From positions 1-32,290 of the forward strand of contig JACRGQ010000056.1 in NCBI GenBank assembly GCA_016217735.1: 32,290 bases of DNA, read 5' to 3'. The notes below the pieces were generated by a model. It had not been told where the DNA came from. It was given only the letters and a program-made list of their open reading frames with translations, and made no database searches. Positions 107 through 28,811 of this stretch are shown in pieces. How positions within the stretch are numbered: the first letter of the stretch is position 1; each line of letters starts with the position of its first letter. The stretch is from Nitrospinota bacterium. Its GTDB lineage: Bacteria; Nitrospinota_A; UBA7883; JACRGQ01. Position numbers and translations under genes: made by a program.

Positions 107-1078
107 TCATGTCGCCTTACTAACGACTTCCTTAGTAACCATGCTGACAATAGGTCTTGATTGCAGAATGCTGAATGCCTGATTTTCGCAAGCCCACTCT
201 ATGTCTTGCGGTGTCCCGAAAACATCTTCAATTTTTAAACAAAGTTTTAAAAGGCCGGCTATTTGATGGTCTGTCAGTTTTTGTTTGTCCCGCCGGCTTT
301 TTGGAACTTGTTTTTCCCTGGTTCCGCCCTTCGCGCCGTTTATCAACATCGAAGCCTGATGGCTTATTTGTTTATCCACTATTCTCCATTCTTTTTTGTC
401 GGCCGTATATGAATCCGGGGTTATCAATCCTTCGACAACCGCTTTCCCCAAGCCATACCCGGCGTCAATCAACATCTGTCCGCGGTTTTTGGTGATGGGA
501 TTGGCCGTAAAGCAGACCCCGGCAATGTCAGGTTGGATCATCTTTTGAACGACCACGGCTATCGATGGGCCGCACAAAGGAAATCCGTTATGGAGGGAAT
601 AGTGGATGGCGCGCGGATTAAACAACGAAGCCCAGCACTTTTTTATGTTTTTCAGCAGCATTCTCTCCGGGGTATTTATGTAGCTTTCAAATTCTCCGGC
701 CCAGGAAGCCCGCGATGAATCTTCGGCGATTGCCGAACTTCTGACGGCCACCAGTGCGGTTTCCAATCGGGTGAGGGCCATAAGGATGTCCGTTGACAAA
801 TCGGCGGGCAGTTCGGCGTTGATAATAAGGCCCGATACCTCGCCCGAAACCGCTTCCACCCGTTGCGGGTTCTTAATGTCAATGCCCGCCAGCAATTTCA
901 GCAGCTTTTCCTTGATCCCGGTTGATTCCAAAAAGCGGTTATATGCCGTCGATAGAATTACAAAACCATCAGGCACCGGAATATTTTCATGCGTCAATAT
1001 TCCCAAAGACGCCCCCTTGCCGCCCGCAGTGGCTATGCTTGGATTAAGCATATTAAGGGGAATTACATCGTTGCTCAT
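107..1078 (-). CDS. Stand-alone PEP synthase/PPDK-type ATP-grasp domain protein
   Basis: This 323-residue protein is essentially one PPDK N-terminal (ATP-grasp) domain. Visible motifs are GGKGASLG at residues 19-26, VRSS at 112-115 followed by AEDS and SWAGEFESY, FTANP near 190-194, and a C-terminal DIEWA...ILQSRPI segment near 290-310 that normally closes the nucleotide site. In PEP synthase, PPDK and rifampin phosphotransferase this domain transfers phosphate from ATP to a swivelling His domain. Here the protein stops straight after the ATP-grasp fold, with no His domain and no PEP/substrate domain. A separate His-domain gene lies in the divergent operon at 6316-6657, so the two products probably act together (inference). 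The gene is transcribed away from that operon. Ribosome binding upstream of the ATG is weak. The domain call is secure; the substrate is unknown. Confidence 0.88.
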   Translation of the reverse strand: MSNDVIPLNMLNPSIATAGGKGASLGILTHENIPVPDGFVILSTAYNRFLESTGIKEKLLKLLAGIDIKNPQRVEAVSGEVSGLIINAELPADLSTDILMALTRLETALVAVRSSAIAEDSSRASWAGEFESYINTPERMLLKNIKKCWASLFNPRAIHYSLHNGFPLCGPSIAVVVQKMIQPDIAGVCFTANPITKNRGQMLIDAGYGLGKAVVEGLITPDSYTADKKEWRIVDKQISHQASMLINGAKGGTREKQVPKSRRDKQKLTDHQIAGLLKLCLKIEDVFGTPQDIEWACENQAFSILQSRPIVSMVTKEVVSKAT

Positions 1079-1208
1079 TTTGATCTCAGGCTTTCGGCGG
1101 AAATATGTTTGTTCGGGAACGTTGTTTCAAGCTCATGTCATATAGAGACACGGTATGCTTTGGCGGTGCGCTTGGCCGCCCACAAAAAATACCGCCCGTA
1201 AAAAACAA

Positions 1209-1247
1209 TTGACGCTATTCAGGATACCATATACTATATAAATAGTA
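1209..1247 (+). promoter_or_regulatory. Putative sigma-70 promoter with overlapping palindrome, head of the biosynthetic operon
   Basis: The 190-base gap between the divergent ATP-grasp and AMP-ligase genes is AT-rich in its middle. TTGACG at 1209-1214 is followed after 17 bases by TACTAT at 1232-1237, a fair -35/-10 pair for rightward transcription. The -10 is also the left arm of an inverted repeat, TACTAT-ATAA-ATAGTA (1232-1247), which a dimeric regulator could bind. No regulator gene was recognised in the cluster. Promoter calls by eye are tentative. Confidence 0.4.
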
Positions 1248-1367
1248 AAAAAAAGCAAACCTAAAGGTTTGATCTGCGGGGGTGTGAAGGATGCGGGTGA
1301 TGCGGTTTCCTCAATTGGCGGGGCGTACACCGCCAAGTACGGGTATCTGATGGCACAAGGCGAAGTC

Positions 1368-2855
1368 ATGACGGCCAAAAGTGATTTTTATGAATTCCGC
1401 GAAAACGGCTCCAGGGGGTTCGCGGTTTTGTCCGGCCGCGATTCAATAAGCTTTGAAGAAATCGAGAAAAGAACCTTTAAACTCGCGCATATTCTCAGAA
1501 CCCTGGGAATTGACGAAGGGGTACGGGCTGGCATGTTCTTGGGCAACGGGCCGGAGTTTGTAACCTCTCTTCTGGCGCTGTCGAAAAACAAATCAAGCGC
1601 TGTTCTTTTCAGCACATATTTCAAGCCCCGCGAGTTGCAAGATTACTTTGAAAGGACGCATGTGCGATTTCTGATATCGGACGAAAAACACGCAAATGCC
1701 GTCCAATCATTGCCGCTTGAAAAAGTGCTTGTACACGCGGAAGACGGTTTTTCCTGGGGCGGCCTGCAAATATGGCGGATGAACAACCCCGGGGAAGATG
1801 GCGCCAGCGCCGCCGGTGACAACTGGCTCGACAAGGAATTTGTTTTGAAATTTACTTCCGGGGTAAACGGAAAATCCAAGATTGTGCCGAAGACCTATGG
1901 GAATGTGGCCGATGAAGTTATGAACTTTTCAAGGACGATATCCCTGGGCGGGAACGATGTGGTCATTTGTCCGGCCCCGCTTTTCCATTCGTATGGCTTG
2001 ATCGACGGTTTTTTATCCAGTTTCCACTCAGGCGCCAAGCTTGTGTTGATGGATAAGTTCATCCCCAATGACTTTATAACCCTTGTCGAGAAAACCAAGG
2101 CCACTATTTTTATAGGGGTGCCGTTCATGTACCAGCTTCTATGCCTAACCTATTTGAACCGGGCGCCTGATTTTTCTTCACTAAGATACTGCTTCTCCGC
2201 GGGGGCCAAAATATCCGAAGAGACCGCCAATAACTATGAGGCAAGATTTGGCCGCAGGATAAACCAGCTTTACGGCTCGACTGAAACCGGGGTCATATCC
2301 GTCAATCTATACAAAGACGGTTTTAGCGACGTCAACTCCGCCGGCCAACCAGTTGAGGGGAGGGTCATTGAGGTCGTGGATGAAGAAGGAAACGAAGTTA
2401 AGCGCGGCACGGCGGGCGAAATCAAGGTGAAAAGCGAAGGGGCGGCAAAAGGCTACCTTGACCACGATGAGCCGGGCCATAAGGCGTTTAGCAACGGGTG
2501 GTATCACACGAATGACATCGGCTATTTAAGCGATGACGGGAACTTGTATGTCACGGGAAGAAAAAGCGCGTTTATAAACGTGGCTGGTTTGAAAGTGGAT
2601 CCCTTCGAAGTGGAAAAGGTATTGATGCTGCACGATGCCGTAAGTGAATGTGCGGTTGTGGGGGTCGCCGAGCCGCATTGCGGCGAGGCCGTGCAGGCCT
2701 ATGTTGTCGCAATCGGCAAGCCCGCGCCCATGGAAATAATCTTGTTTTGCAAAGAAAGATTGGCGGACTACAAGGTTCCCCAAAATATCCGGTTTGTGGA
2801 TGAGTTGCCAAAAAGTCCCACCGGGAAAATATTAAGAAAGTATTTGGCCGGCTGA
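1368..2855 (+). CDS. AMP-forming acyl/aryl ligase (ANL superfamily)
   Basis: ANL adenylating enzyme of about 495 residues from the chosen ATG. Core motifs are present in order: the phosphate loop FTSGVNGKSK, LYGSTETG (A5), WYHTNDIGY (A7), GRKSAFINVAGLKVDPFEVE (A8), and C-terminal PKSPTGKILRKYL carrying the catalytic lysine (A10). It should activate a carboxylic acid as an acyl-AMP and pass it to CoA or a carrier protein; the acyl carrier protein at 6051-6329 is the obvious local acceptor (inference). A TTG at 1269, an ATG at 1350 and the ATG at 1368 share the frame. I chose 1368 because recognisable ANL similarity begins just after it and the first 33 residues look unrelated. It leads the rightward operon and is followed after 14 bases by the radical SAM gene. 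Confidence 0.88.
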   Translation: MTAKSDFYEFRENGSRGFAVLSGRDSISFEEIEKRTFKLAHILRTLGIDEGVRAGMFLGNGPEFVTSLLALSKNKSSAVLFSTYFKPRELQDYFERTHVRFLISDEKHANAVQSLPLEKVLVHAEDGFSWGGLQIWRMNNPGEDGASAAGDNWLDKEFVLKFTSGVNGKSKIVPKTYGNVADEVMNFSRTISLGGNDVVICPAPLFHSYGLIDGFLSSFHSGAKLVLMDKFIPNDFITLVEKTKATIFIGVPFMYQLLCLTYLNRAPDFSSLRYCFSAGAKISEETANNYEARFGRRINQLYGSTETGVISVNLYKDGFSDVNSAGQPVEGRVIEVVDEEGNEVKRGTAGEIKVKSEGAAKGYLDHDEPGHKAFSNGWYHTNDIGYLSDDGNLYVTGRKSAFINVAGLKVDPFEVEKVLMLHDAVSECAVVGVAEPHCGEAVQAYVVAIGKPAPMEIILFCKERLADYKVPQNIRFVDELPKSPTGKILRKYLAG

Positions 2856-2869
2856 GGGGAGTGGGGACG

Positions 2870-4162
2870 ATGGAAATAAAGTTAGACAGGGACGACTTCA
2901 TAAATCAGTACCCGCCATTCAACCTGATAAATTCAAAGGCCGTAAACGGTATTTTCAAAAAAGAGGGAATGCACGTTTATGTGCATCTGCCGTTTTGCAA
3001 AAACAAGTGCGGGTATTGCTATTTCAAGTCCTTTGACGAGTTCACTGATGAGACCGTCAAGGCATACCTGGCGGCCCTGAAAAGGGAGGTATCCATTTAT
3101 AGCCAAATGGCGGAGGTGCAAAGCAAGAAGGTGAGGTCGCTATATTTCGGTGGCGGCACCCCAACCCTTCTCTCGTGCGCGCAATTGGAGGATTTGACGC
3201 ACCATATCAAGGGAAGCTTTGATTTTAATGATGATTATGAGTTTTGTGTTGAATCCAATCCGGACAAAGAAACCGCGACGAAAGAAAAGTTCGATCTTCT
3301 AAAAGCCCTTAATGTCCGGCGGATAAGCTTCGGCGTGCAAAATTTCAACGAGGCGGTCTTGCGGCTTAACGGCAGATACAACAATTTAGACGAGTTTTAC
3401 CGGATTTATGGGATGGCGAAAGACTCGGGCATCGAAGTAAGGAACATAGACATCATGTCCGGGATGATTGGCGAGACAAGCGGGAATTGGCGCGCGGTCA
3501 TAGACAAGCTCATTGAACTTGCGCCGGAAAATATAGCGTTTTACAAGATCGAGCTTTACTACAACACGAAGCTGTTCGAGAAGACGCGGAAAAACATTCA
3601 CGATACCCCCCTTATGTCGAACCGCGAGGAGATCGAGCTTATCAAATACGCCTATGACAGGCTTCAGGACGAAGGCCGGTATACCGTGACCAGTTGCTTC
3701 AACCTGGCAAAGAGCCGCCGGCAGGAGCATTTACACCGCAAGGGGATTTGGGAAGGGGATGACATGATTGGTTTTGGGTTGTCCTCGCATTCATGTTTTA
3801 ACCGGCACCTATATCAGAACGCATGGAACATGAAGGATTATCTTCAGGCCGTTAGCTCGCAAAGACTCCCCATCAAAAGGGCATATTTCATTTCGATGCG
3901 CGATGAAATAGCGTCGGCGATGGTTTACGGGGTCAAAAGCCTAGAAATGAGCAGGCAGGGCTTCATAGACCGGTTTGGCTTTGACATGACAGTCCTGTAC
4001 GGAGATACCATCGGTCTTCTGGAGGAAAAGGGGTTTTTACAGTTGACGCGGGACTCGCTAAAAGTACCCAGGGAATATTACATATTCGCCGACGATATAA
4101 GCAGGAAATTCTTCCTCCCCGAACACGAGACCATGATGCTTGCCCACCTTGCGAGGGCATAG
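2870..4162 (+). CDS. HemN/HemW-like radical SAM enzyme
   Basis: This 430-residue protein has the radical SAM cluster motif C-x3-C-x2-C at residues 43, 47 and 50 (HLPFCKNKCGYCYF). It also has the glycine-rich GGGTPT SAM-binding motif, an NVRRISFGVQNFNE segment typical of the HemN/HemW group, and a C-terminal winged-helix-like HemN_C region. Family members include coproporphyrinogen III dehydrogenase, the heme chaperone HemW and class C radical SAM methyltransferases/cyclopropanases of natural-product pathways. Its position in a biosynthetic operon favours a tailoring role over heme metabolism (inference). An in-frame GTG at 2861 is possible, but ATG 2870 has a better placed GGGGA upstream. The next gene follows after 3 bases. 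Confidence 0.85.
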   Translation: MEIKLDRDDFINQYPPFNLINSKAVNGIFKKEGMHVYVHLPFCKNKCGYCYFKSFDEFTDETVKAYLAALKREVSIYSQMAEVQSKKVRSLYFGGGTPTLLSCAQLEDLTHHIKGSFDFNDDYEFCVESNPDKETATKEKFDLLKALNVRRISFGVQNFNEAVLRLNGRYNNLDEFYRIYGMAKDSGIEVRNIDIMSGMIGETSGNWRAVIDKLIELAPENIAFYKIELYYNTKLFEKTRKNIHDTPLMSNREEIELIKYAYDRLQDEGRYTVTSCFNLAKSRRQEHLHRKGIWEGDDMIGFGLSSHSCFNRHLYQNAWNMKDYLQAVSSQRLPIKRAYFISMRDEIASAMVYGVKSLEMSRQGFIDRFGFDMTVLYGDTIGLLEEKGFLQLTRDSLKVPREYYIFADDISRKFFLPEHETMMLAHLARA

Positions 4163-4165
4163 GGG

Positions 4166-6058
4166 ATGTCCAGCGCGCTTGTCATGGGGTATTCCGGCTC
4201 CAGCCGCGAGAGCCAGGAAAACAGGAAAAAACTTTTTGTTTTAAAGAAAGCGCCCAGGAACGGCAACCGGCATTTTGACAGCTTCCTCTCCTTCGGGAAT
4301 GACGCGGAGGATGTGCCGATGAATTATTTTCCGCTAAAAGGGTTGGGGCACGATTGTGCGGCCTCTTTGATTCGCGGGGGCACGGCGGTCGCATCCGCCG
4401 CCGAAGAGAGGTTCAACAGGATGAAGCATTCCGTCTCCCCGGCCGGGAGCAATATGCTCCCTAAAAGATCAATGGAGTTCTGCTTAAAGCAAGGCGGCGC
4501 TTCGATGCGTGACGTGGATTACATCTGCTATTTCCTTGATGTGTCGGAAGAAGTATTCAATAGAAAGATCGAAATATTGTCGAGATGCCTGCCGGAACGC
4601 GTAAAAGAGAAAGTGATACAAGCCAACAGGCTCAGTTATGAAAAGGAATTCTCCAGTGCGCGGGTTTACGGCGAACTCGTAAGGGTGACGGCGCATGAGT
4701 GGGGACGTGAAAAGGTAAAGTTCATACCCCACCATTATGCGCATGCCGCGTCGGCATTTTACTCTTCAGGCTTTGATGATTGCGGCATTCTCACTTTGGA
4801 CGGGTATGGAGAGGTGGCCAGTTCTGTTTTCGCCATCGGGCATGGAAACAAATTGGATGTGATGGAGGAAACGGAAATACCCACGTCGCTAGGCATTTTA
4901 TACATGTTAATCACCGCGTTCCTCGGCTTCAAGCCCCTCAGCGACGAGTACAAGGTGATGGGTTTGGCGTCATATGGAGATTCAAAGAATTATGAAAAGG
5001 AATTCCGGAGCCTTATAAAAATTGGAAATGACGGCGCCTACGATACGTCAGCCCTCATACGGGAGGATTTTAAAAGCGTCATCGAGGAAATGTTCGGCAA
5101 GCCAAGGGAAGCACACGGTGAAATCACACGAAGGGAGAAAGATGTCGCCGCTTCATTGCAGCATGCGTTGGAGGAAGCCGTCCTTCACAAGCTTGCATAT
5201 CTGAAAGTGAAGCATGGTTTCAAAAACCTCTGCCTTTCAGGGGGCGTTGCCCTCAATTGCGCAATGAACGGAATGCTCGTCAAATCAGGCCTGTTTGAAA
5301 ATATTTATGTCTTTCCCGCAAGCGGTGATGACGGGTGCAGTTTGGGCGCGGCACAATACTTTTATTACAACAAAATGAATCCTGGCGGCGGGAAGAAGAA
5401 AGTCGCCTCGGTTTACCTGGGGCCTGAATATTCGGATGGCGAAGTATCCATGGCCATAAACAAGTTTGGGGGGGCAATCAGTTCTTGCAAAAAGGAATGC
5501 GTGGAAAACGAAGCCGCAAAACTCCTGGCGCGGCAAAAGGTGATCGGGTGGTTCCAGGGCCGGATGGAATTCGGCCCCAGGGCATTGGGGAACAGGAGCA
5601 TTCTGGCGGACCCGAGGAGTCCGGGTATGAAAGATATTGTCAACGCGAAAATCAAAAAGAGAGAGATGTTCAGGCCGTTTGCGCCGGCGGTAAAGCTGGA
5701 AAGCGCAGAAACGTACTTTGAAATGGAACGGTTGGATGAATCCCCCTATATGCTTTTCGTTGTGCCGGTCAAGGAAGATAAAAAAAACCTTATACCCGCT
5801 GTTACCCACTGTGACGGCACGGCGAGGATCCAGACCGTCAAGGAAGAAGATAATCCGATGTTTTGGAAATTACTATGCAGCTTTGAAAGACATGCCGGAC
5901 TGCCCATTATTTTAAATACGTCGTTCAATGTTATGGGCGAACCTATCGTGTGCAGTCCGGAGGACGCGGTGCGGTGTTTTCTTGGCACAAACTTGGATGC
6001 CCTTGTAATCGGCAACTATCTAATCGAAAAACTAAATCAAGGAGGCGGAAATGGATAG
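4166..6058 (+). CDS. NodU/CmcH/TobZ-family O-carbamoyltransferase
   Basis: This 630-residue protein matches the two-domain carbamoyltransferase family, which makes carbamoyl-adenylate from carbamoyl phosphate and ATP and transfers the carbamoyl group to a hydroxyl. The N-terminal Kae1-like domain shows GHDCAASLIRGG, AAEERFNRMKH, the metal-binding HHYAHAASAFY segment, LTLDGYGE and LSGGVALNCAMNG. The C-terminal domain shows GWFQGRMEFGPRALGNRSIL, FRPFAPAV and LNTSFN. About 55 residues precede the usual family start; they begin ALVMGYSGSS, which itself resembles a family N-terminus, so the region may hold a long basic insertion rather than a spurious extension. The likely product is a carbamate on the cluster metabolite (inference). 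Its last 8 bases overlap the carrier-protein start. Confidence 0.92.
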   Translation: MSSALVMGYSGSSRESQENRKKLFVLKKAPRNGNRHFDSFLSFGNDAEDVPMNYFPLKGLGHDCAASLIRGGTAVASAAEERFNRMKHSVSPAGSNMLPKRSMEFCLKQGGASMRDVDYICYFLDVSEEVFNRKIEILSRCLPERVKEKVIQANRLSYEKEFSSARVYGELVRVTAHEWGREKVKFIPHHYAHAASAFYSSGFDDCGILTLDGYGEVASSVFAIGHGNKLDVMEETEIPTSLGILYMLITAFLGFKPLSDEYKVMGLASYGDSKNYEKEFRSLIKIGNDGAYDTSALIREDFKSVIEEMFGKPREAHGEITRREKDVAASLQHALEEAVLHKLAYLKVKHGFKNLCLSGGVALNCAMNGMLVKSGLFENIYVFPASGDDGCSLGAAQYFYYNKMNPGGGKKKVASVYLGPEYSDGEVSMAINKFGGAISSCKKECVENEAAKLLARQKVIGWFQGRMEFGPRALGNRSILADPRSPGMKDIVNAKIKKREMFRPFAPAVKLESAETYFEMERLDESPYMLFVVPVKEDKKNLIPAVTHCDGTARIQTVKEEDNPMFWKLLCSFERHAGLPIILNTSFNVMGEPIVCSPEDAVRCFLGTNLDALVIGNYLIEKLNQGGGNG

Positions 6059-6329
6059 GGAAGAAATAAGGAAAGCGCTGTTGGACATACTCTGCTCCAA
6101 AGATCAAATGTCGTTGCAACTGGATACGTCGGACATTAAGGACGACACTTCATTGTTGAGCGACGTCTGTTTGGATTCCATTCAGATATTGGAGCTCGTA
6201 GTGGCAATCGAAAACAAATTCAAGGTATGCATAAACACCGAAGAAATCACCCTGGACATATTCGACCGATTTTCTGATTTAGTCGAATACATTGGCGCGC
6301 AGACCGGCGGTTCTTATGAAAAAATCTGA
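6051..6329 (+). CDS. Acyl carrier protein
   Basis: A 92-residue acidic helical protein with the phosphopantetheine attachment site CLDSIQILELV; the serine is residue 43. A following VAIENKFKVCINTEEITLDIFDRFSDLVEYI pattern matches helices II-IV of carrier proteins. The ATG lies inside the end of the carbamoyltransferase gene and is preceded by a strong AAGGAGGCGG ribosome site, which shows translational coupling. No ketosynthase or condensation domain is encoded in the window, so it probably holds a single acyl or aryl unit during tailoring, with the ANL ligase as loading enzyme (inference). No phosphopantetheinyl transferase was seen nearby. Confidence 0.9.
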   Translation: MDREEIRKALLDILCSKDQMSLQLDTSDIKDDTSLLSDVCLDSIQILELVVAIENKFKVCINTEEITLDIFDRFSDLVEYIGAQTGGSYEKI

Positions 6330-6657
6330 AATTAAAAAAAAGATACTGGAGGGGTTGCCGGTCAGCCGCGGAACGATAACCGGAACCGTCAGGGTAATAA
6401 AGGACCATAAAATGTCCGCCCTTGTGAACGAAGGGGACATTCTGGTTGTCCCCAGAAGCCATCCGAATTACGCGATCGGAGTCATGAAAGCCGGCGGTCT
6501 TATTTGCGAGGAAGGTGGCAGGCTGTCGCACCTTTGCATCGTGGCGATGGAAATGGGCATTCCCTGCATAACACAGGCAAAGGGAGCCATTACGCTGCTT
6601 GAGACGGCTTGCACCGTGACCCTGGACGCCAGTGACGGGGCGGTATATGAAGCCTAG
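6316..6657 (+). CDS. Stand-alone phosphohistidine swivelling domain (PEP-utiliser mobile domain)
   Basis: This 113-residue protein corresponds to the single PEP-utilising mobile domain. It starts with GLPVSRGTITGTVRVIKD, continues with EGDILVVPRSHPNYAIGVMKAGG, and carries the phosphohistidine signature EEGGRLSHLCIVAMEMGIPC with His at residue 72. The family pattern is GGRTSHAAIVAR, so T-S-H is L-S-H here but the histidine is kept. It ends with VTLDASDGAVYE, the normal domain end, so it is complete rather than truncated. I start it at ATG 6316, inside the carrier-protein gene, rather than at an upstream TTG (6292). It presumably receives phosphate from the ATP-grasp protein at 107-1078 (inference). 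It overlaps the next gene by 11 bases. Confidence 0.87.
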   Translation: MKKSEIKKKILEGLPVSRGTITGTVRVIKDHKMSALVNEGDILVVPRSHPNYAIGVMKAGGLICEEGGRLSHLCIVAMEMGIPCITQAKGAITLLETACTVTLDASDGAVYEA

Positions 6658-7687
6658 AACCGGCGAGGAAAGACTTACGCTTTACAGAAAATCGCTCGCA
6701 TTTGCCTGGGGCTTCGTCGATTACAACGACTGGCCGGTAAAGCTCAATTCCGTTTTCCACCTTTTCTTAAAGGAGTTCGGCGAGGAATTATTGGAAGATA
6801 TTAATGCACTAAAAGCACAAGGCTGTTCGGCGAAGGATATCGCCGGCGGCTTTTACAACCCGGCCAGAATATACAGAATCATAGACTCGGCCATTTATAG
6901 CATGAGGAGGAACAAATACCCCCTTGATCAACAAAAGGCGGTCACGTTGGAACTTCTATCCTTTGTCAGTGTCCTGAAACAGGGGTCTGAGTTTAATGAG
7001 GACGGCAGGAACATAATTTACAACGACGCCCAGTTGGCGGCGGTTATCGACAGATTGGATGGCAAGACCTGCACCCGCGATGATTCCCGGCTGTTACACA
7101 GATTTTGCGGAATGATTTGGGCATATACAGAGGCGATTTTTTTCAGGGCGCATGATGTCACAAAAGAGATACATGGCCCCTATTCCCACAAAGACGGAAG
7201 ATCGAACATTATCATCAAGGAATATCTGAATCTGCACCCATCGGACATCTGGCCGGGCATTGCTCTTTTGCCGTGCAAGACCATAAAGGTGGTCAGCCTC
7301 TATAGCGAGAACATAAAACAAAGCATAGACGCTTTGAATCACCTTTATCACGACGGCGGGAGTTTGGTGGACAACCTTAACGGATACTACATCGAGGTGG
7401 ACGGAAAAATCGAAAGCGCCGGCCGGATAAAGGAGCTTGTGAAGGATATTGGACGGGCGATATCCGAGATCACGGATAGGGTTGAGCAAATGACCTTCAA
7501 TGAAAAAATCATCAAATACGCGGAGATATTCTGGTTCAGGAAAAGGCCTTTACGGGAGATGCGCGGAAAGGACTGGAGGCTTCCGCTCCCGGTAAGGGAA
7601 AAAATCCTCGCGGGGGAAATCAACCCGCGCAGAATAAGCCGGCTGCCGGAAGAGCAGGTTCACAGGCTGGCGATGCTCACGATTTAA
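6647..7687 (+). CDS. Unrecognised 346-residue protein, candidate substrate domain of the split PEP-utiliser
   Basis: I do not recognise this protein. It starts at an ATG inside the end of the phosphohistidine-domain gene, which points to coupled translation and possibly a shared complex. It is soluble-looking and mixed helical, with many aromatic residues (AWGFVDYNDW, WAYTEAIFFRAHDVTKEIHGPY, YAEIFWFRKRP) and a charged C-terminus (DWRLPLPVREKILAGE). No signal peptide, membrane segment or Cys motif is visible. Multidomain PEP-utilisers such as rifampin phosphotransferase carry a substrate-binding domain between the ATP-grasp and His domains; with both of those separate here, this protein could supply that part (speculation). 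A GTG at 6632 is an alternative start. Confidence 0.75.
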   Translation: MKPRTGEERLTLYRKSLAFAWGFVDYNDWPVKLNSVFHLFLKEFGEELLEDINALKAQGCSAKDIAGGFYNPARIYRIIDSAIYSMRRNKYPLDQQKAVTLELLSFVSVLKQGSEFNEDGRNIIYNDAQLAAVIDRLDGKTCTRDDSRLLHRFCGMIWAYTEAIFFRAHDVTKEIHGPYSHKDGRSNIIIKEYLNLHPSDIWPGIALLPCKTIKVVSLYSENIKQSIDALNHLYHDGGSLVDNLNGYYIEVDGKIESAGRIKELVKDIGRAISEITDRVEQMTFNEKIIKYAEIFWFRKRPLREMRGKDWRLPLPVREKILAGEINPRRISRLPEEQVHRLAMLTI

Positions 7688-7695
7688 GGAACAGG

Positions 7696-8865
7696 ATGGC
7701 GTTAATGGATTCCGATATTTACATAGCCAAGTGCGATTCATACGATGGCGATGCCATCTACAAATTGCTTTTGGAGTTTTTTGGATACATCGGTGGCGCG
7801 GAAAAGTGGATTAAACCGGGAATGGAAGTATTGATTAAGCCCAATCTCTGCCTTGCCCATCCTCCCGAAATGGCGATAACGACACACCCAACGGTGATTG
7901 AGCAGGCCGCCAGGATCGCCATGGAGTGCGGAGCCAACGTGTCGATAGGAGACAACCCCATTGGCAAGTTCGATCAACGTCACATAAGCAGGATTTGGGA
8001 AGTTGCGGGCATGAATGCAATTGTCGAAAGGCTTGGTTGCGGGAAAAGCATTCTTGACAAAAAAGGATTCAGGAAAGAAACATTTGAGCTTAATGGAAAT
8101 ACGGCCGATTACTACATATCCAGGGAGTATTTAAGCGCCGATTTAGTCATAAACATTCCAAAGTTCAAGACGCACGCCCTGATGGGGTTTACCGGCGCCG
8201 TTAAAAACATATACGGAATCATACCCGGGCGGTCAAAACTCAGGCTGCATGGTTTTGCGCCGGGGGTACGCGAGTTTTCAAGGATCATTGCGGATGTGTA
8301 TTCCAAGAGGATTCCCGAGGTAACGATAATGGATGCCGTTGAAGGGCTTGAGGGTAACGGGCCAGGCACGGGGGGGGTGAAGAGGAAGGTGGGCCTGCTA
8401 ATGGCGAGCAGTGACGGGGTTTTGCTGGATTCGATCTGCTCAAGAGTTATTGGCGTGGACCCTAACGACATTGCAACAAACATCTCCGCCAGGGAAAAGG
8501 GGCTTGGAAGCATGAACCCGCGCAATGTGTATTTAAGCGGTATCGGCAGGTTGGAGGATGCATATCTCCGGGATTTTAAGATTCCAAGCACGATGCGCTA
8601 TAAAAACTCGAAGGTCGTGGAAAAACTATTCAACATCGCACGGTTCAAGATACGAATCCAGCCGGACAAATGTAAGGACTGTTTCCTGTGTTTCAAAAAT
8701 TGCCCTGTGGAAGCAATCGGGCAGGCGGCTGGCAAGCGCCTTCAAATAAACGAGGCTCAATGCATCCAATGCCTGTGTTGCCTTGAGTTATGTCCGCACG
8801 GCGCCGTTGACGCTTCCACGAGCAGGTTTTATTCGGAACTTAAAAGACTGCGGGCCCGTTCATGA
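7696..8865 (+). CDS. DUF362 protein with C-terminal 2[4Fe-4S] ferredoxin domain
   Basis: A 389-residue protein with an N-terminal DUF362 domain (VLIKPNLC, THPTVIEQAARIAMECGA, VINIPKFKTHALMGFTGAVKN, IMDAVEGLEGNGPG). A bacterial-type ferredoxin module follows, with two C-x2-C-x2-C-x3-CP motifs beginning at residues 326 and 356. DUF362 proteins have no settled biochemical role; the fused ferredoxin implies electron transfer, possibly to the radical SAM enzyme or a reductive step in the pathway (inference). An AAGGA site lies 5 bases before the ATG and 8 bases separate it from the previous stop. The domain call is firm, the role unknown. Confidence 0.88.
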   Translation: MALMDSDIYIAKCDSYDGDAIYKLLLEFFGYIGGAEKWIKPGMEVLIKPNLCLAHPPEMAITTHPTVIEQAARIAMECGANVSIGDNPIGKFDQRHISRIWEVAGMNAIVERLGCGKSILDKKGFRKETFELNGNTADYYISREYLSADLVINIPKFKTHALMGFTGAVKNIYGIIPGRSKLRLHGFAPGVREFSRIIADVYSKRIPEVTIMDAVEGLEGNGPGTGGVKRKVGLLMASSDGVLLDSICSRVIGVDPNDIATNISAREKGLGSMNPRNVYLSGIGRLEDAYLRDFKIPSTMRYKNSKVVEKLFNIARFKIRIQPDKCKDCFLCFKNCPVEAIGQAAGKRLQINEAQCIQCLCCLELCPHGAVDASTSRFYSELKRLRARS

Positions 8866-9473
8866 GGAATAACGCTATGGATAGTGGAAGGGACCTGGCA
8901 ATTATAATAGACAACTATGATTCATTTACATATAATTTGTACCAATATATTATGGAAATGGTCTCGGAGGTTAAGGTTTTCAGGAACGATAATATTACCA
9001 TTCGTGATATTGAGGATATGGAGCCGAAATATATTGTGATTTCCCCGGGACCCAAGGAACCCAAGGACGCGGGCATGTCCAAAAAAATCATAGAACGATT
9101 TGGGGAGGAGGTAAATATTTTAGGCGTATGTCTCGGCCACCAGTGCATTAATGAGGTCTTTGGCGGCATTACGGTCAGGGATAAAAAGGTATTTCATGGC
9201 AAGGTCTCCGTTATTAATAATGACCAAAAACACATATACAGGGGCTTGCCAAAAAGATTATCGGTGGCGCGTTACCATTCCCTGGTGGCTGATGCGGCCA
9301 GGATATCAAAAGATATTGAGATCACCGCATGGACCGATGACGGCGTGGTTATGGGGATAAGGCACAAGAGCCGCCCAATAGAGGGCGTTCAGTTCCATCC
9401 GGAATCCTTCATGACGGAATATGGCAAAGAAATGCTGCAAAATTATTTTAGCATGAGTTGCACGGTGGCATAA
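8862..9473 (+). CDS. pabA: Aminodeoxychorismate/anthranilate synthase glutamine amidotransferase subunit
   Basis: A class I glutamine amidotransferase of 203 residues. It shows IIIDNYDSFTYNLYQY, the ISPGPKEPKDAGMS motif, the nucleophile loop GVCLGHQ with Cys90, VARYHSLV, and the GVQFHPES catalytic His-Glu. It hydrolyses glutamine and delivers ammonia to the chorismate-binding subunit encoded immediately downstream. PabA and TrpG cannot be told apart from this subunit alone, so the name follows its partner. The ATG overlaps the DUF362 stop by 4 bases; a second ATG at 8877 has a better AGGAA site and is a fair alternative. Confidence 0.88.
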   Translation: MRNNAMDSGRDLAIIIDNYDSFTYNLYQYIMEMVSEVKVFRNDNITIRDIEDMEPKYIVISPGPKEPKDAGMSKKIIERFGEEVNILGVCLGHQCINEVFGGITVRDKKVFHGKVSVINNDQKHIYRGLPKRLSVARYHSLVADAARISKDIEITAWTDDGVVMGIRHKSRPIEGVQFHPESFMTEYGKEMLQNYFSMSCTVA

Positions 9474-9477
9474 GCCG

Positions 9478-10896
9478 ATGATAAAACCGCAAATCATGTC
9501 CCTTGGCGCCAGTCCCGGGTTCCACGACATTGCGGAGTACTTCTCCGATAGACCCCACTTTATTTTCCTCGACAGCAGGATACAGGGGGAGATCAATGGA
9601 AAATACTCTTATATAGCCTTTGACCCCTTTCTTGTTTTCAGGTCAAAGGGGAACAAAGTCACCATCTATGGACGCGGCGGACAGGCCGAACACGAGACAG
9701 GTAATCCCTTCGATGTTTTAAGCGGATTATTGGCAAAATATAAAATTGACCCGTCCTTCGGCAAAGAAACTTCGAACTTCCTCGGCGGCGCCATTGGTTA
9801 TTTTGCGTATGAGCTGGGCGGGCAAATAGAAAAACTGCCGGAGCGTAAAAAAGGTGAGCCGCCGGTTCCGGAATGTTATGTCTGCTTTTATGACACCGTG
9901 TTTATATATGACGGCGGCAAAAACAAAATATCATTGTCCCATTGCGCTTTTGAAGAAAACGCGCCTCCGGCGTCCGCGGTGGAACGCTTGCTCGATGAGG
10001 TTGCAGCCATTCCCGCCGGGATATATGAGTCCAGCATGCAACATTCAGCTGAAAACAACGGGCCTGCCGCTGGCGAAGTTACAAGCGATTTTACCAAGGA
10101 TGAATACATGCGCGCGATAAACCGGGTGAAAGAGTACATCCTGGCGGGCGACGTATATCAGGTCAACCTGACGCAAAGGTTTAAGTTCAGCGTTGGAAGC
10201 AAAGGCAACTGGTGGATATACAAAATGCTTATGCGGGTAAATCCGGCGCCGTTCGCGTGTTATTTAAATTTTGAGGACGTCTGCGTCGCTTCATCTTCGC
10301 CGGAAAGGTTTTTTAAGGTTGTGGATGGCGAGGTTGAAACCCGGCCGATTAAGGGCACCATTGGGAGAGGAGCGGATCCAAGCGAAGACGCGCAAAATAT
10401 GGAGACCCTTAAAAACTGCCAGAAGAACCGGGCGGAATTGGCAATGATCGTGGACTTGCTGCGGAATGACCTCGGGCGTGTATGCAAGCCGGGTACGGTA
10501 AAAGTCAAGGCTTTCCCGGAACTGGAGACCTACGCCTCCGTGCATCATCTTGTGGCGACCATAACGGGCGAGCTGTTGGAAGGCAAAAGCCCGGTAGACC
10601 TGTTAAGGGCGACGTTCCCCGGGGGATCGATTACCGGAGCGCCAAAAATAAGGGCGATGGAAATCATAGACGAACTGGAGCCGGTCGCCAGGGGCGTTTA
10701 CACCGGCAGTATAGGTTACCTCGGCTTTAATGGAAACGCGGACCTGAATATTGTGATACGGACGATTATCATCACAGGTCAAACGGGATACATCCAGGCC
10801 GGTGGAGGAATTGTTGCGGACTCCACGGCCGAGGACGAATATCACGAATCAATTCTAAAGGCAAAAAACCTTTTCAAGGCGCTTGCGGGGGGATAG
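9478..10896 (+). CDS. pabB: Aminodeoxychorismate synthase component I-like chorismate aminase
   Basis: A 472-residue chorismate-utilising enzyme with SSPERFF, RPIKGTIGRG, NDLGRVCKPGTV, FPGGSITGAPKIRAMEIIDELEP, GSIGYLGFNGNADLNIVIRT and an AGGGIVADS ending. The PIKGT motif (residues 290-294, Lys292) is the main diagnostic: aminodeoxychorismate synthases keep this nucleophilic lysine, whereas anthranilate synthases usually have alanine (PIAGT). The predicted product is therefore 4-amino-4-deoxychorismate rather than anthranilate. No PabC lyase and no aminophenylalanine-type chorismate mutase/dehydrogenase lies in the window. The gene ends the operon, 4 bases after its amidotransferase partner. 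It could instead be the housekeeping folate copy, though its place inside a specialised operon argues against that. Confidence 0.87.
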   Translation: MIKPQIMSLGASPGFHDIAEYFSDRPHFIFLDSRIQGEINGKYSYIAFDPFLVFRSKGNKVTIYGRGGQAEHETGNPFDVLSGLLAKYKIDPSFGKETSNFLGGAIGYFAYELGGQIEKLPERKKGEPPVPECYVCFYDTVFIYDGGKNKISLSHCAFEENAPPASAVERLLDEVAAIPAGIYESSMQHSAENNGPAAGEVTSDFTKDEYMRAINRVKEYILAGDVYQVNLTQRFKFSVGSKGNWWIYKMLMRVNPAPFACYLNFEDVCVASSSPERFFKVVDGEVETRPIKGTIGRGADPSEDAQNMETLKNCQKNRAELAMIVDLLRNDLGRVCKPGTVKVKAFPELETYASVHHLVATITGELLEGKSPVDLLRATFPGGSITGAPKIRAMEIIDELEPVARGVYTGSIGYLGFNGNADLNIVIRTIIITGQTGYIQAGGGIVADSTAEDEYHESILKAKNLFKALAGG

Positions 10897-11018: not shown

Positions 11019-11456
11019 ATGAAAAATGAGGGACATATCATGGGAATGACTCAGCAGGAAAAGGAGATATGGGAAGTAGTCCAATCGCTTAACCGCACTT
11101 GGACCAAGGAGGGGAACCCCGATGCGCTTAAGGGCTATTTTCACAAGAATATGGTGGCTATAACCCCCACAGACCGTTTTTGCCTTGAGGGTGGAGATGT
11201 TTGCGTGGCGTCGTGGAAGACATTTGCCGAGAGCGCGAAAATCCATAGATGGGAGGAACTGCGGCCAAACATACAAATTTATGGAAACGGAAAGTTCGCC
11301 ATAGTCACTTATTATTTTGACATGGCGTTTGAGATGGGTGGTCAAGAAGTGGAAATGGGCGGGCGCGATATGTTCGTGCTTTCCAATGAAGACGGTAAAT
11401 GGTGGGTGGTCGCGGATAATTTTTCAGCGTACCCTGTTAGCGGAGCGGGCGCTTAA
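11019..11456 (+). CDS. SnoaL/NTF2-like (DUF4440-type) small protein
   Basis: A 145-residue protein with the cone-fold pattern of NTF2-like proteins: an N-terminal helix (EKEIWEVVQSLNRTWTKEGN), PDALKGYFHKNMVAITP, then strands ending NGKFAIVTYYFDMAF and the GGRDMFVLSNEDGKWWVVADNFS signature common in DUF4440/SnoaL-like proteins. Such proteins bind small ligands or act as isomerases or cyclases, or have no known activity. Three ATGs (11019, 11040, 11046) are close together; I give the longest. It may be monocistronic or co-transcribed with the next gene, which follows without a spacer. Confidence 0.65.
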   Translation: MKNEGHIMGMTQQEKEIWEVVQSLNRTWTKEGNPDALKGYFHKNMVAITPTDRFCLEGGDVCVASWKTFAESAKIHRWEELRPNIQIYGNGKFAIVTYYFDMAFEMGGQEVEMGGRDMFVLSNEDGKWWVVADNFSAYPVSGAGA

Positions 11457-12152
11457 TTGGACGATACGGGAGGCTTTCAAGGTTTTTCGAGGGAAACCAG
11501 CCGCTTCCTTCATGACCTTAAGCGAAACAACAACAAGGGTTGGTTCGAGTCAAACAAGGCGCGCTATCAGGATGTCCTTATAAAGCCGCTTACTGAATTG
11601 GCGTCGGATTTGGCGCCATTTATGCTCTCCATAGATTCGCACATGGAGGTAACTCCAGCGGTGAACAAAACAATATCCAGAATCTACCGGGATACAAGAT
11701 TTTCGCGGGACAAGTCTCCCTATAAGACCACGATGTGGATTACCTATAAAAGGCCGCGCAAGAATTGGGTTAGCGCGCCCGCGTATTTTTTTGAGATATC
11801 GGAGGAATCCTACCGTTACGGCATGGGGTTTTACAGCGCGGAAAAAGGCACCATGGACGGGCTAAGGTGGGCAATCAACGATGACCCGGCAGGTTTTTTA
11901 AAGGCAACCGCATTTTACTCCAAGCAGAATGCCTTTGCCGTGGAAGGGGAGAAATACAAGAGGTTGTTAAGTGAAACCATTCCCCCGGAACTATTGGATT
12001 GGTACCAGAGAAAGAATCTTTATCTCGTCTGCAACAGGAAAATGGAAGGAAGTATTTTTAGCCGGAAACTGGTGGCGGATCTGAAGGGCGGGTTCAGCCT
12101 GCTTGGCCCTTTTTACCACTATTTAAGGAAAGTCACTGAAGAGGTGGAATGA
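11457..12152 (+). CDS. DUF2461 / TIGR02453 family protein
   Basis: A 231-residue protein that matches the DUF2461 pattern: FQGFSRETSRFLHDLKRNNNKGWFESNKARY at the start, NKTISRIYRDTRFSRDKSPYKTT in the middle (family motif RDxRFSxDKxPYK), then YFFEISEESYRYGMGFY. The family is widespread and has no established function. The frame begins with TTG directly after the TAA of the SnoaL-like gene and in the same frame, and no in-frame ATG precedes the conserved region. TTG is therefore either the start, or the two domains were once fused and are now separated by one stop codon. Confidence 0.75.
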   Translation: MDDTGGFQGFSRETSRFLHDLKRNNNKGWFESNKARYQDVLIKPLTELASDLAPFMLSIDSHMEVTPAVNKTISRIYRDTRFSRDKSPYKTTMWITYKRPRKNWVSAPAYFFEISEESYRYGMGFYSAEKGTMDGLRWAINDDPAGFLKATAFYSKQNAFAVEGEKYKRLLSETIPPELLDWYQRKNLYLVCNRKMEGSIFSRKLVADLKGGFSLLGPFYHYLRKVTEEVE

Positions 12153-12268
12153 GCCGCCGGACACGATAAAAAACATCCAGCCGTGCCGCGATGGGAAATG
12201 CAATTTCGCTGGGTTCCAGGATGATCTCCCGGCGACGCTTTATGCGCACCGGGAGCCGCGGGGAAAAA

Positions 12269-12616
12269 TCAGCAGCTGGAGCTGCCGCCGCAGCCGCAGC
12301 CTCCACCGCCGCCATGACCGTGTCCGCCGCTGGGGGCGTTCGGATTGCGGAAAACGAAGGACGCGCCCTGCTGGTCGTCCACATAGTCCAGTTCAAGGCC
12401 TTTAATATTTTTGATGGTCTTCGGATCGATGATCACGGGGATGCCGTTGCAGGTGAATTCCGTATCTTCATCCCCCTTTTCGTCGAAGCCGAGGCCGTAT
12501 TCGAAACCGGAGCAGCCGCCGCCGACCACGGCGATCCTGAGCGGAAGCCCTTCGCACTTGGCGACAATCTGTGATTTCTTGATCTGTTCAGCCGCGCTGG
12601 CGGTAACGTTCACCAT
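12269..12616 (-). CDS. A-type iron-sulfur cluster carrier (IscA/ErpA/HesB family) with Gly/His-rich insert
   Basis: A 115-residue A-type carrier that would hold and transfer Fe-S clusters to apo-proteins. Conserved features are the N-terminal TASAAEQIKK, LRIAVVGGGCSGFEYGL with Cys35, and the C-terminal CGCG with Cys107 and Cys109. Between the usual NPNA and CGCG lies an extra glycine/histidine-rich stretch (SGGHGHGGGGG) about nine residues longer than in E. coli IscA, and the protein ends in an additional cysteine (Cys115). ATG 12616 is chosen because GGGAG sits 7 bases upstream and family similarity starts there; the frame is open further upstream without family character. No other isc/suf genes are in the window. 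Confidence 0.9.
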   Translation of the reverse strand: MVNVTASAAEQIKKSQIVAKCEGLPLRIAVVGGGCSGFEYGLGFDEKGDEDTEFTCNGIPVIIDPKTIKNIKGLELDYVDDQQGASFVFRNPNAPSGGHGHGGGGGCGCGGSSSC

Positions 12617-12756
12617 ATGATGACTCCCATTTAATACTCGTTTATGTGCAATTTTCCATATTTTAGCATGAAATCTGCCAAAAAGCCGGTTTTTACCCAA
12701 GGGGCGTATTGTTTTATCACTGCATAGAGCCGCAAAAGACCCTTTGGGATTCGGCG

Positions 12757-13413
12757 CTATTCCTTTTTTGGAATCCACCCGAGCGCGGCGGAGACGGATT
12801 TACGCGGGATCATAATATTCGCCTCGTTCAGCCGGACGCCGATTTTTTCCGATTCCAGCATTTTCATGATCATCGGCTGCGCGTCCAGCGTCCAGTCGCC
12901 GTAGCCGGGGGCGTAGCGGAATGTGAGGGAGTAGCCCATCTTGGCACACTCCGTTTGCACGCGGTCTTCCACGCGGTCGGCCATGTAATCGGCCATCCAT
13001 CCCCCCACATATTCGAGGTAGAAACCGTCGGTCGGTTCTGTTTTGATGATGGCGTCGGACATCGCGGGGAGTTTTGGGCCGATGGTGGTGAGGAGCAGCG
13101 TCACATAGTGGCAAGGGAGGAGCATCTCCACCACTTTTTTGCCGAAGAATAGTCCCGGTACTCCTTCCACGGCGGGCGGTTTTCCCTCTTCCTGTATCAG
13201 GCGGTAGGTGCGGTAGATTGCCTTCGGCTCGATGAGTCCGTAGCCGGTGTCTATCGCCTTTTTTATGTAGCGGGCGATGTTTTGCTCCGGCATCTCCTTG
13301 AGCGAGCTGATCTTCGAGATGCGCAGTTCGCGTAGCACCCGCTCCTCCTCGATGGTGAACGGGATGTTGTTCAGCACGATGGGGCGTTGGAGGCTTTCGA
13401 TGACGAGCGCCAC
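12757..13413 (-). CDS. Stand-alone MetH reactivation-domain-like protein
   Basis: A 218-residue protein resembling the AdoMet-binding activation domain of B12-dependent methionine synthase, here as a separate polypeptide. The C-terminal half carries the typical run YAPGYGDWTLDAQ, then IGVRLNEANIMIPRKSVSAALGW (family pattern: RxSPGYGDWPL...Q followed by L..S.MM.P.KSVS). VGGWMADYMADRVEDRVQ precedes it. The native role would be reductive methylation of inactive cob(II)alamin in MetH, or reactivation of another corrinoid protein. No MetH core is in the window. It starts at GTG 13413 behind GGGAG. A decayed second copy of its 5' end lies near 15354-15445. Confidence 0.65.
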   Translation of the reverse strand: MALVIESLQRPIVLNNIPFTIEEERVLRELRISKISSLKEMPEQNIARYIKKAIDTGYGLIEPKAIYRTYRLIQEEGKPPAVEGVPGLFFGKKVVEMLLPCHYVTLLLTTIGPKLPAMSDAIIKTEPTDGFYLEYVGGWMADYMADRVEDRVQTECAKMGYSLTFRYAPGYGDWTLDAQPMIMKMLESEKIGVRLNEANIMIPRKSVSAALGWIPKKE

Positions 13414-13463
13414 GCTTAGTGGCTCCCGCCTGTGATGTTCGTAACGCCGTTTCCCATGCCTGT

Positions 13464-13492
13464 ATTATAAAGCGGCGGGGGGAAAGCGCAAA
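13464..13492 (-). promoter_or_regulatory. Putative promoter of the MetH-activation-like gene
   Basis: Reading leftward, a perfect TATAAT occupies 13469-13464, about 50 bases before the GTG start. A weak TTTGCG stands 17 bases further upstream (13492-13487). The -10 is convincing, the -35 poor. Confidence 0.35.
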
Positions 13493-13510
13493 CCTCCCCC
13501 CGCGCATATT

Positions 13511-13635
13511 TCAAATCCCGGCGGCGCAGTCGCGCGCAAAACTTTCGAATGGGGTTGGCTCTTTGCCGGTCAACAGCCGGACATCCCCCGTAACCGCCGA
13601 GCAATACCCCGCCTTGCCGCTCCAATATCGGCAAG
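13511..13635 (-). pseudogene. C-terminal remnant of an NmrA-like NAD(P)-binding protein
   Basis: The leftward frame ending at TGA (13513-13511) reads GKAGYCSAVTGDVRLLTGKEPTPFESFARDC.., the characteristic C-terminus of NmrA-type reductases. It aligns with the intact gene at 15571-16434 (AEVRNTVEQVTGRKPHSFARFSRDY) but is not identical to it. Upstream of about 13635 the family similarity stops and no start is available. It is a decayed fragment, and a shorter relative lies at 15302-15340. Confidence 0.55.
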
Positions 13636-13674
13636 CCGAATGTGGCGTATACCCGCAACTTAACGGATTCAGGG

Positions 13675-14472
13675 TTAATCCCTCTTAAGAAGACATATTG
13701 ATACCCTCTCCAGAATCTTACTCGGCGTAAATGGAATTGAAAGAACTAACAGCCGATTAAATAGTCCGGGAACAATTACCTTCCTATTTCCCATAAATGC
13801 GCGATAAGCGATTCTGGCGACTTCCTGCGGTTCCATCACGAATTTTTTAAAAAGCAGGATATTTTCCATATTTGCTTTTTTGGCAAATTCCGTTTTCGTC
13901 GCGCCAGGGCACAATGTTGATACTGTCACCCCTGTTCCTGAAAGTTCCGCCCTAAGAGCGTTTGAGAAGCTTAAGACGTATGCTTTTGTCGCGCAATACA
14001 CGGCATCCAGGGGGCACGGGGCAAAGGAGCCGGTTGAACCCAAATTTAATATCTTGCCGTAATGGTTTTTCAACATCCCCGGCAGAAAGAGCTTTGTCAG
14101 GTGTGTAAGGGATGCAATATGCACTTGTAACATCCGCAGTTCTTTATCAATGTTTGTTTCGTGGAACGGGCCGCTTTCGTTGAATCCGGCATTATTTATC
14201 AAAATATCGACATGAATCCCTTGGCCTTGAATATCCAAAAAGACTTCTTTCGGCGCTCTGGGTTCCGAAAGGTCTTTTGCAAGGATGTGAACCGTTACCC
14301 CATAACGTTTTTCCAAATTTTCTTTTTGCGCCTTCAGCTTTTGGTCATTTCTGGAAACCAAAACCAGATTGAACCCCTCCATCGCAAAAATCTCACTAAG
14401 TTCATATCCGATTCCGCTCGTAGTTCCGGTAATAAGAACCGTTCTCATGTTGTTCTGGCCTTTGTTTTTCAT
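13675..14472 (-). CDS. Short-chain dehydrogenase/reductase
   Basis: A classical SDR of 265 residues. It has the Rossmann motif TGTTSGIGYEL, NNAGFN, the catalytic Ser of GSTGSF and the catalytic YCATK (Tyr-x3-Lys), followed by CPGATKTEF. It should oxidise or reduce an alcohol/carbonyl or lipid-like substrate with NAD(P)(H); the long hydrophobic C-terminal segment (VPGLFNRLLVLSIPFTPSKIL) is typical of SDRs that associate with membranes. A strong AAGGAGGAG site precedes the ATG. It lies 49 bases downstream of the TetR gene, and an operator-like palindrome sits between them, so it is probably the regulated gene. Confidence 0.9.
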   Translation of the reverse strand: MKNKGQNNMRTVLITGTTSGIGYELSEIFAMEGFNLVLVSRNDQKLKAQKENLEKRYGVTVHILAKDLSEPRAPKEVFLDIQGQGIHVDILINNAGFNESGPFHETNIDKELRMLQVHIASLTHLTKLFLPGMLKNHYGKILNLGSTGSFAPCPLDAVYCATKAYVLSFSNALRAELSGTGVTVSTLCPGATKTEFAKKANMENILLFKKFVMEPQEVARIAYRAFMGNRKVIVPGLFNRLLVLSIPFTPSKILERVSICLLKRD

Positions 14473-14490
14473 ATCGCGCTCCTCCTTAAG

Positions 14491-14503
14491 TGACCCATGG
14501 TCA
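14491..14503. promoter_or_regulatory. TetR operator copy upstream of the SDR gene
   Basis: TGACC-CAT-GGTCA is a perfect 5-bp-arm palindrome lying in the 49-base gap between the TetR stop and the SDR start. The same arms with the same 3-base spacing recur in front of the TetR gene (15227-15239). With flanks, the match extends as AAGTGACC..GGTCATTT. The shared sequence strongly suggests one regulator binds both sites. Confidence 0.65.
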
Positions 14504-14521
14504 TTTATATGGTAAATTTTT

Positions 14522-15190: not shown

Positions 15191-15223
15191 TACCCTCTCT
15201 CCCCAGCCTCTGTACAACAACAT

Positions 15224-15242
15224 AAATGACCAGTGGTCATTT
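15224..15242. promoter_or_regulatory. TetR operator copy upstream of the TetR gene
   Basis: AAATGACC-AGT-GGTCATTT is a perfect palindrome with 8-bp arms around a 3-base centre, about 35 bases before the chosen TetR start. It shares its core arms with the site at 14491-14503. Its position just upstream of the regulator fits autorepression. Confidence 0.68.
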
Positions 15243-15301
15243 GTCAAATGTTTTATTTATTGAATATTTCGCGTCTCGGTCGGGTTTCAAATCCCAGAAG
15301 T

Positions 15302-26328: not shown

Positions 26329-26350
26329 CGGAATGAAAGGAACGGCATCG

Positions 26351-27682: not shown

Positions 27683-27716
27683 GGAATTCCTCCCCTTGAT
27701 CCCCTTGCTTGGCAGA

Positions 27717-28810: not shown

Positions 28811-28811
28811 A

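Follow-up and report, generated by a model that had tools for sequence, protein, structure and literature searches.

A conserved operon with a putative split dikinase, a discrete carrier protein and an orphan protein family in a Nitrospinota bacterium and two further lineages

Positions 1 to 32,290 of contig JACRGQ010000056.1 of a Nitrospinota bacterium (assembly GCA_016217735.1) make up the window analyzed here, which carries ten adjacent genes at 107 to 10,896. In a first-pass annotation, they were read as a biosynthetic locus that combines chorismate amination, acid activation, a carrier protein, radical chemistry, O-carbamoylation, a DUF362-ferredoxin and two solo domains of a phosphoenolpyruvate (PEP) synthase-like phosphotransferase. 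This gene set raises the question whether the genes work together or are housekeeping genes placed side by side by chance, and, if they work together, what a phosphotransferase in pieces contributes. Nine of the genes are colinear across two phyla, a six-gene core is present in a third lineage, and the active-site motifs are intact. The product is most likely a carrier-tethered, aminodeoxychorismate-derived, carbamoylated specialized metabolite.

All ten annotated open reading frames (ORFs) are present in the sequence, and Pfam and NCBIfam concur with the names given to nine of them, the tenth being a 346-residue protein without a family, hereafter the orphan. Nine genes lie on the plus strand (1368–10,896), with successive spacings of 5 bp, 3 bp, −8, −14, −11, +8, −4 and +4. 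The gaps and overlaps do not exceed 14 bases throughout, so that these nine genes form a single operon, as annotated. The likeliest starts are ATG 1368 for the ligase, ATG 2870 (or GTG 2861) for the radical SAM (S-adenosylmethionine) enzyme and ATG 6316 for the swivel protein; the ORFs as annotated exist, with minor start shifts for these three. The tenth gene, encoding a solo ATP-grasp (PPDK_N) protein, is divergent (107–1078, minus strand). Because the window starts at the first base of the contig and this gene lies 106 bp from the contig start, the locus may extend past the assembly on its left side. No module of a nonribosomal peptide synthetase (NRPS) or polyketide synthase (PKS) was found among the Pfam-scanned genes of the operon and the rest of the window, in line with the annotation.

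Relatives of the orphan were sought with six 8-residue patterns across ~85,000 species genomes. Two were found, one in a Nitrospirae groundwater metagenome-assembled genome (MAG; 61% identity) and one in Candidatus Thiomargarita nelsonii (35%), so that, with the window host, the orphan is known from three genomes in all. It was not found in any of the remaining 23 host-phylum genomes, in 395 other genomes sampled from the MAG phylum, in 176 others of the MAG order (an overlapping sample), in 42 other genomes of the Thiomargarita order, or in viral contigs, plasmids and phages. A weak match in a Nitrospirota genome (L013) turned out to be a sigma-70 protein matching by chance. The MAG and the window host belong to different phyla, as the phylum groups comprise at least 396 and 24 genomes, respectively. 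On two contigs taken jointly, the MAG has the ligase, radical SAM enzyme, carbamoyltransferase, carrier, swivel, orphan, DUF362, PabA and PabB genes in the order of the window. The contig break falls inside the swivel gene, the first 74 codons of which end one contig, whereas the last codons open the other (DMVMLDADEGIVYEIQNR-stop, compared with CTVTLDASDGAVYEA-stop in the window). The start of the orphan gene overlaps the stop of the swivel gene both in the window and on the MAG contig L009. The identities between the window and the MAG are 52% for the ligase, 59% for the radical SAM enzyme, 58% for the carbamoyltransferase, 69% for the carrier, 64% for the available part of the swivel, 61% for the orphan, 56% for DUF362, 70% for PabA and 57% for PabB. 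The MAG contigs carry further genes. Downstream of PabB (L009, 4363–6157), there is a 356-residue protein without a Pfam match and the beginning of a protein with a weak, below-cut-off match to a B12-binding domain; both are missing from the window and could possibly extend the pathway. Upstream of the ligase (L024, 5258–6649), the MAG encodes a 463-residue protein without a Pfam family, in which the sequence YTTGTTGIPS resembles an adenylation motif.

The Thiomargarita contig has the order ATP-grasp, a methyltransferase-like ORF (called from sequence), swivel, a PhpK-family radical SAM enzyme, orphan, ligase, carrier and HemN-like radical SAM enzyme, with an NRPS condensation-like ORF, called by motif alone, further on (13,096–14,808). 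Six genes thus make up the core: solo ATP-grasp, solo swivel, orphan, ligase, carrier and HemN-like radical SAM enzyme. The identities to the window proteins are 35–37% for the ATP-grasp protein, 50% for the swivel, 35% for the orphan, 31% for the ligase and 30% for the radical SAM enzyme; the carrier shares 33% identity with its Nitrospirae counterpart. PabAB, DUF362 and the NodU-type carbamoyltransferase are absent from this contig, and therefore the chemistry of the core need not begin from aminodeoxychorismate. This implies an exchangeable core of ligase, carrier, radical SAM enzyme, putative dikinase and orphan, to which different precursors and finishing enzymes are added. Two AMP-ligases on the contig (1–585 and 5589–7097) are 71% identical over the fragment, representing a duplication within the locus. 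The PhpK-family enzyme (2772–4409), situated by the split dikinase genes, scores 619.6 with TIGR04479, above the curated P-methyltransferase cut-off of 600, which hints at phosphorus chemistry in this giant sulfur bacterium. A phosphinate reading was considered on this account but is kept as a side remark, the window having no PhpK gene. The gene neighborhood of the 346-residue protein, on the conservation of which the first-pass annotation had staked its reading, is thus kept elsewhere.

Each of the families is common on its own, as would be expected for a chance cluster of housekeeping genes (folate PabAB, HemW and pieces of PEP synthase). Yet the host has three Chorismate_bind genes, whereas 20 of the other 23 genomes from its phylum have two. 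Two of the three are encoded elsewhere in the genome, namely a TrpE (above its NCBIfam cut-off, with the motif PIAGT) and a PabB (likewise above the cut-off, with PIKGT). The operon enzyme (9478–10,896, plus strand) is a further PabB, scoring above the pabB cut-off (TIGR00553, 364 bits versus 328) and below that for trpE, and it contains PIKGT, the Lys of which marks aminodeoxychorismate synthases. The radical SAM enzyme remains below the NCBIfam equivalog cut-offs of both HemW (166.7 versus 205.4) and HemN (168.2 versus 325). Moreover, the GC content at third codon positions is 0.53–0.64 in the operon versus ~0.77–0.83 in host genes (trpE, housekeeping pabB, cbiQ and a sigma-54 activator). 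The base composition of the operon is foreign to the host, and the operon was probably acquired horizontally. Together with the colinearity across phyla, these results already contradict the housekeeping explanation, for which we see next to no chance. The adjacent genes at 11,019–15,247 (DUF4440/SnoaL-like, DUF2461, SDR and TetR) have a similarly low GC content; therefore, the imported stretch may span about 15 kb.

In PEP synthase, PPDK, Rph and PigC, three domains are joined: ATP-grasp, acceptor and swivel, the last of which bears the catalytic His. The locus encodes the first of these as a stand-alone protein of 323 residues (PF01326, E-value 3.7e-92) and the last as a stand-alone protein of 113 residues (6316–6657, plus strand; PF00391, 9.9e-20), so that both solo domains named in the annotation are present. 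Judged by sequence, this split PEP-utilizer is best read as resembling the two-component small-molecule dikinases HpeHI, CreHI and PpsAB with a detached swivel, which sharpens the earlier description and makes the orphan a candidate third part. In this subfamily, described in 2025, a stand-alone ATP-grasp protein is accompanied by a protein combining the acceptor and swivel domains (PMC12167813). The reaction that defines the class turns ATP and an acceptor into the phospho-acceptor, AMP and Pi. Among PDB structures, the window ATP-grasp protein alone matched the Rph ATP-grasp domain (5hv6, 3.5e-61) and HpeI (9goj, 4.1e-45), and the ATP-grasp profile matched HpeI 9goj_A at 3.9e-71. The nucleotide-site motifs GGKG, VRSSA.ED, QDIEWA and QSR are unchanged between the window and Thiomargarita ATP-grasp proteins, and the catalytic His in GGxxxH of the swivel is invariant across the three copies. 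At 6490–6530, the window swivel has Cys instead of T/S in T/SxxGGxxxH, and the Thiomargarita copy does likewise. The swivel is solo in all three orphan-bearing genomes. In a sample of 385 genomes from many families, almost all non-host matches to it belonged to proteins several hundred residues long; the sole short exception was a 141-residue open frame. PasAB has been reported to phosphorylate the aniline nitrogen, and dikinases of this type phosphorylate phenols and aniline (PMC7500099). By analogy with HpeHI, CreHI, PpsAB and PasAB, a small aromatic acceptor is plausible for the dikinase of the locus.

The orphan (6647–7687, plus strand) had no relatives in Pfam, NCBIfam, PADLOC or, by sequence, the PDB, even at E ≤ 10, save for marginal matches of single members, such as that of one member to an NCBIfam transcriptional regulator model (8e-4). 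It has the invariant motifs HxxCGxxWAYxE and FRAHxxxKExHGPYxH and many invariant His, Cys, Glu and Arg residues, and the motifs suggest an active site. Two AlphaFold2 models, resting on three sequences, reached predicted local distance difference test scores of 68.5 and 68.7 and predicted template modeling scores of 0.68 and 0.70. In both, an N-terminal helical part is followed by four strands and then by a C-terminal helical part. Because the acceptor part of the dikinase is missing, and because the orphan accompanies the solo swivel in three of three genomes, with overlapping genes in two of the three, we propose, from genomic context, the orphan as the best candidate for the acceptor-binding third component. 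The wider proposition, that a three-component phosphohistidine dikinase acts on carrier-tethered acids, with the orphan founding a new acceptor-binding family and the operon a previously unknown NRPS/PKS-free class, is advanced tentatively and with more doubt than confidence.

The acid on which these proteins could act would be supplied by the carrier module. It comprises an AMP-forming acyl ligase (1368–2855, plus strand; PF00501, 3.9e-61; PF13193, 2.2e-19), a HemN-like radical SAM enzyme (2870–4162, plus strand; PF04055, 1.9e-22; CX3CX2C and YVHLPFC) and a discrete acyl carrier protein (6051–6329, plus strand; PF00550, 3.9e-07; Ser in LDSIQ). The three genes are adjacent in Thiomargarita too and, therefore, belong to the core; the phosphopantetheine Ser of the carrier (LDS) is invariant in all three copies. 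In nosiheptide biosynthesis, NosI adenylates an aryl acid and loads it onto the free carrier NosJ, and the class C radical SAM enzyme NosN acts on the tethered acid (PMC5585349). Among the features of class C enzymes, the Tyr of YVHxPFC stacks on the second SAM in NocN and HemN (PMC12871812). The window enzyme matched HemN (1olt, 3.6e-30) and NocN (9p2u, 9.3e-23) and has both CX3CX2C and the Tyr of YVHxPFC, but HemN itself has both. In composition, the trio is a NosI/NosJ/NosN-like core, and transfer of a one-carbon unit by the radical SAM enzyme is likely from its sequence. No NosL, NosK hydrolase or thiopeptide precursor or maturation family was found in the operon or in the remaining Pfam-scanned genes of the window, a short precursor-peptide ORF not having been sought specifically.

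The remaining four genes would provide the precursor and the finishing steps. Besides PabB, the operon encodes a PabA-type class-I glutamine amidotransferase (8862–9473, plus strand; PF00117; above the TIGR00566 cut-off), and the pair has the features of an aminodeoxychorismate synthase. No PabC-type lyase is encoded in the operon, and lyases elsewhere in the genome were not searched for; therefore, the acid may be p-aminobenzoate (PABA) formed via a lyase encoded elsewhere, or a non-aromatic derivative. The NodU/TobZ-type O-carbamoyltransferase (4166–6058, plus strand; PF02543 and PF16861) has the Carbam_trans_N and Carbam_trans_C domains above gathering scores and matched 7xb6 (1.1e-107) as well as GdmN and TobZ in the PDB. 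The DUF362 protein (7696–8865, plus strand; PF04015, 1.4e-49, plus Fer4 matches) ends in a 2x[4Fe-4S] ferredoxin part, and both CX2CX2CX3C motifs are kept in the Nitrospirae copy.

In the scheme that we propose, we infer the substrate, the order of the steps and the role of the orphan. PabAB would produce 4-amino-4-deoxychorismate, which would give rise to PABA or a related amino acid; the ligase would load an aryl or alicyclic acid onto the carrier in the manner of NosI and NosJ; and the radical SAM enzyme, like NosN, would introduce or shift a one-carbon unit while the acid is tethered. The NodU-type enzyme would O-carbamoylate, and the DUF362-ferredoxin could contribute a redox step. With ATP as the donor, the ATP-grasp protein would phosphorylate the solo swivel protein on its His; the swivel would then hand the phosphate to an acceptor bound by the orphan, and the phosphate might be retained on the product or prime a group for the step that follows. 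Our confidence in a horizontally acquired specialized-metabolite operon around a free-standing carrier, with this mechanism in full including a three-component dikinase, is evenly divided. Of the biosynthetic logic in the first-pass annotation, a dedicated, conserved locus in which PabAB, ligase, carrier and carbamoyltransferase act together stands, whereas PABA or aminodeoxychorismate as the substrate of the ligase stays conditional. No published pathway with this gene set, or combining these elements, was found in the open-access literature, in agreement with the annotation.

Several observations weigh against this scheme. The PabAB/DUF362/NodU half is common to just two genomes; the window ATP-grasp gene is divergent, so that its membership leans on Thiomargarita; and the Nitrospirae MAG assembly yielded no solo ATP-grasp gene, maybe because the contig stops there. 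Homology of the orphan to the middle (acceptor) domain of Rph was rejected (hhalign probability 0.2%, nothing with hmmsearch), and Foldseek with the two orphan models yielded no significant solved fold; given three sequences, both negatives are weak. In Thiomargarita, furthermore, the swivel and orphan genes are split apart by the PhpK-like gene. The dikinase might, therefore, consist of the ATP-grasp and swivel proteins only, with the loaded carrier presenting the acceptor, and the orphan might be an unrelated pathway enzyme, for example a transferase, hydrolase or metal enzyme. This would agree with its dissimilarity to Rph middle domains, with the non-adjacent genes in Thiomargarita, and with the invariant His, Cys, Glu and Arg motifs, which suggest a catalysis of its own. 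But the orphan, solo swivel and solo ATP-grasp occur together in the window and in Thiomargarita, the orphan and swivel genes overlap in two genomes, and the known relatives have a separate acceptor domain (PMC12167813), so that we consider the two-part dikinase unlikely, if a serious contender.

Alternatively, the phosphohistidine relay could activate a substrate for condensation, as in PigC and RedH, leaving no phosphate on the product. Both the ATP-grasp and the swivel proteins match the PigC and RedH models, and an operon without NRPS condensation domains needs another bond-forming enzyme; however, the scores lie under those of the PEP synthase and Rph models and far under the PigC equivalog cut-off, which makes this relay rather improbable. 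In the aniline pathway of Desulfatiglans, phosphorylation of aniline by PasAB is followed by carboxylation to 4-aminobenzoate (PMC7500099); both a split dikinase and chemistry around 4-aminobenzoate are therefore also met in the catabolism of an aromatic amine. PabAB, however, is biosynthetic, a carrier protein and an O-carbamoyltransferase have no evident catabolic place, and no carboxylase or benzoyl-CoA reductase family occurs among the operon genes. A catabolic operon of this kind thus appears highly improbable.

If the proposed biosynthetic reading is true, the three-part dikinase with its mobile, stand-alone swivel would be a new enzyme architecture and the orphan, with its strongly conserved motifs, a new protein family. 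The solo swivel together with the orphan could then serve as a hallmark for biosynthetic loci that rules keyed to NRPS and PKS possibly miss. That a giant sulfur bacterium shares the locus with two uncultured lineages points to a common, horizontally moved small molecule, and the phosphotransfer step is open to direct assay with three small recombinant proteins.

Outside the operon, a promoter-like sequence, TTGACG-17-TACTAT (1209–1237, plus strand), precedes the ligase gene; it is a match to the consensus only, and such sites are no more numerous than in shuffled sequences. At 24,035–31,072, genes for an HlyD protein, ABC ATPases, an outer-membrane efflux protein and two ABC-2 permeases point in one direction and have host-like GC. 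This drug-type efflux operon, 13 kb off, is a possible, unproven exporter.

Four groups of known systems share parts of the locus. Albicidin biosynthesis involves a PABA synthase and a carbamoyltransferase. Aminobenzoate units and carrier-bound acid activation unite albicidin and cystobactamid with the locus, as do O-carbamoylation in the former and radical SAM tailoring in the latter; unlike the locus, with its HemN-like radical SAM enzyme and no NRPS module in the operon, these systems have multimodular NRPS/PKS enzymes and, in cystobactamid, a cobalamin-dependent radical SAM enzyme. To our knowledge, the split dikinase and the orphan have no counterpart in arylamide antibiotic clusters. Cystobactamid is such an antibiotic, derived from PABA and tailored by radical SAM chemistry (PMC7966384). 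The NosI–NosJ–NosN systems of nosiheptide and nocathiacin have in common with the locus an AMP-ligase, a discrete carrier and a HemN-like radical SAM enzyme with CX3CX2C and the YVHxPFC Tyr, but they have NosL, NosK and thiopeptide genes where the locus has the dikinase parts, PabAB, DUF362 and the carbamoyltransferase. Rph and the prodigiosin ligase PigC contain the same ATP-grasp and swivel families in one polypeptide of ~870 residues, whereas in the locus these are separate proteins and the orphan has no detectable kinship to the middle domain. The two-component small-molecule dikinases HpeHI, CreHI, PpsAB and PasAB, like the locus, have a stand-alone ATP-grasp protein (in the locus a homologue of HpeI, 9GOJ) and a swivel with a catalytic His. 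In these dikinases, the swivel is fused to a Rif-binding-like acceptor domain, has T/S in T/SxxGGxxxH and serves aromatic catabolism; in the locus, a 113-residue swivel stands alone beside the separate 346-residue orphan, has Cys at this position and belongs to a carrier-protein operon.

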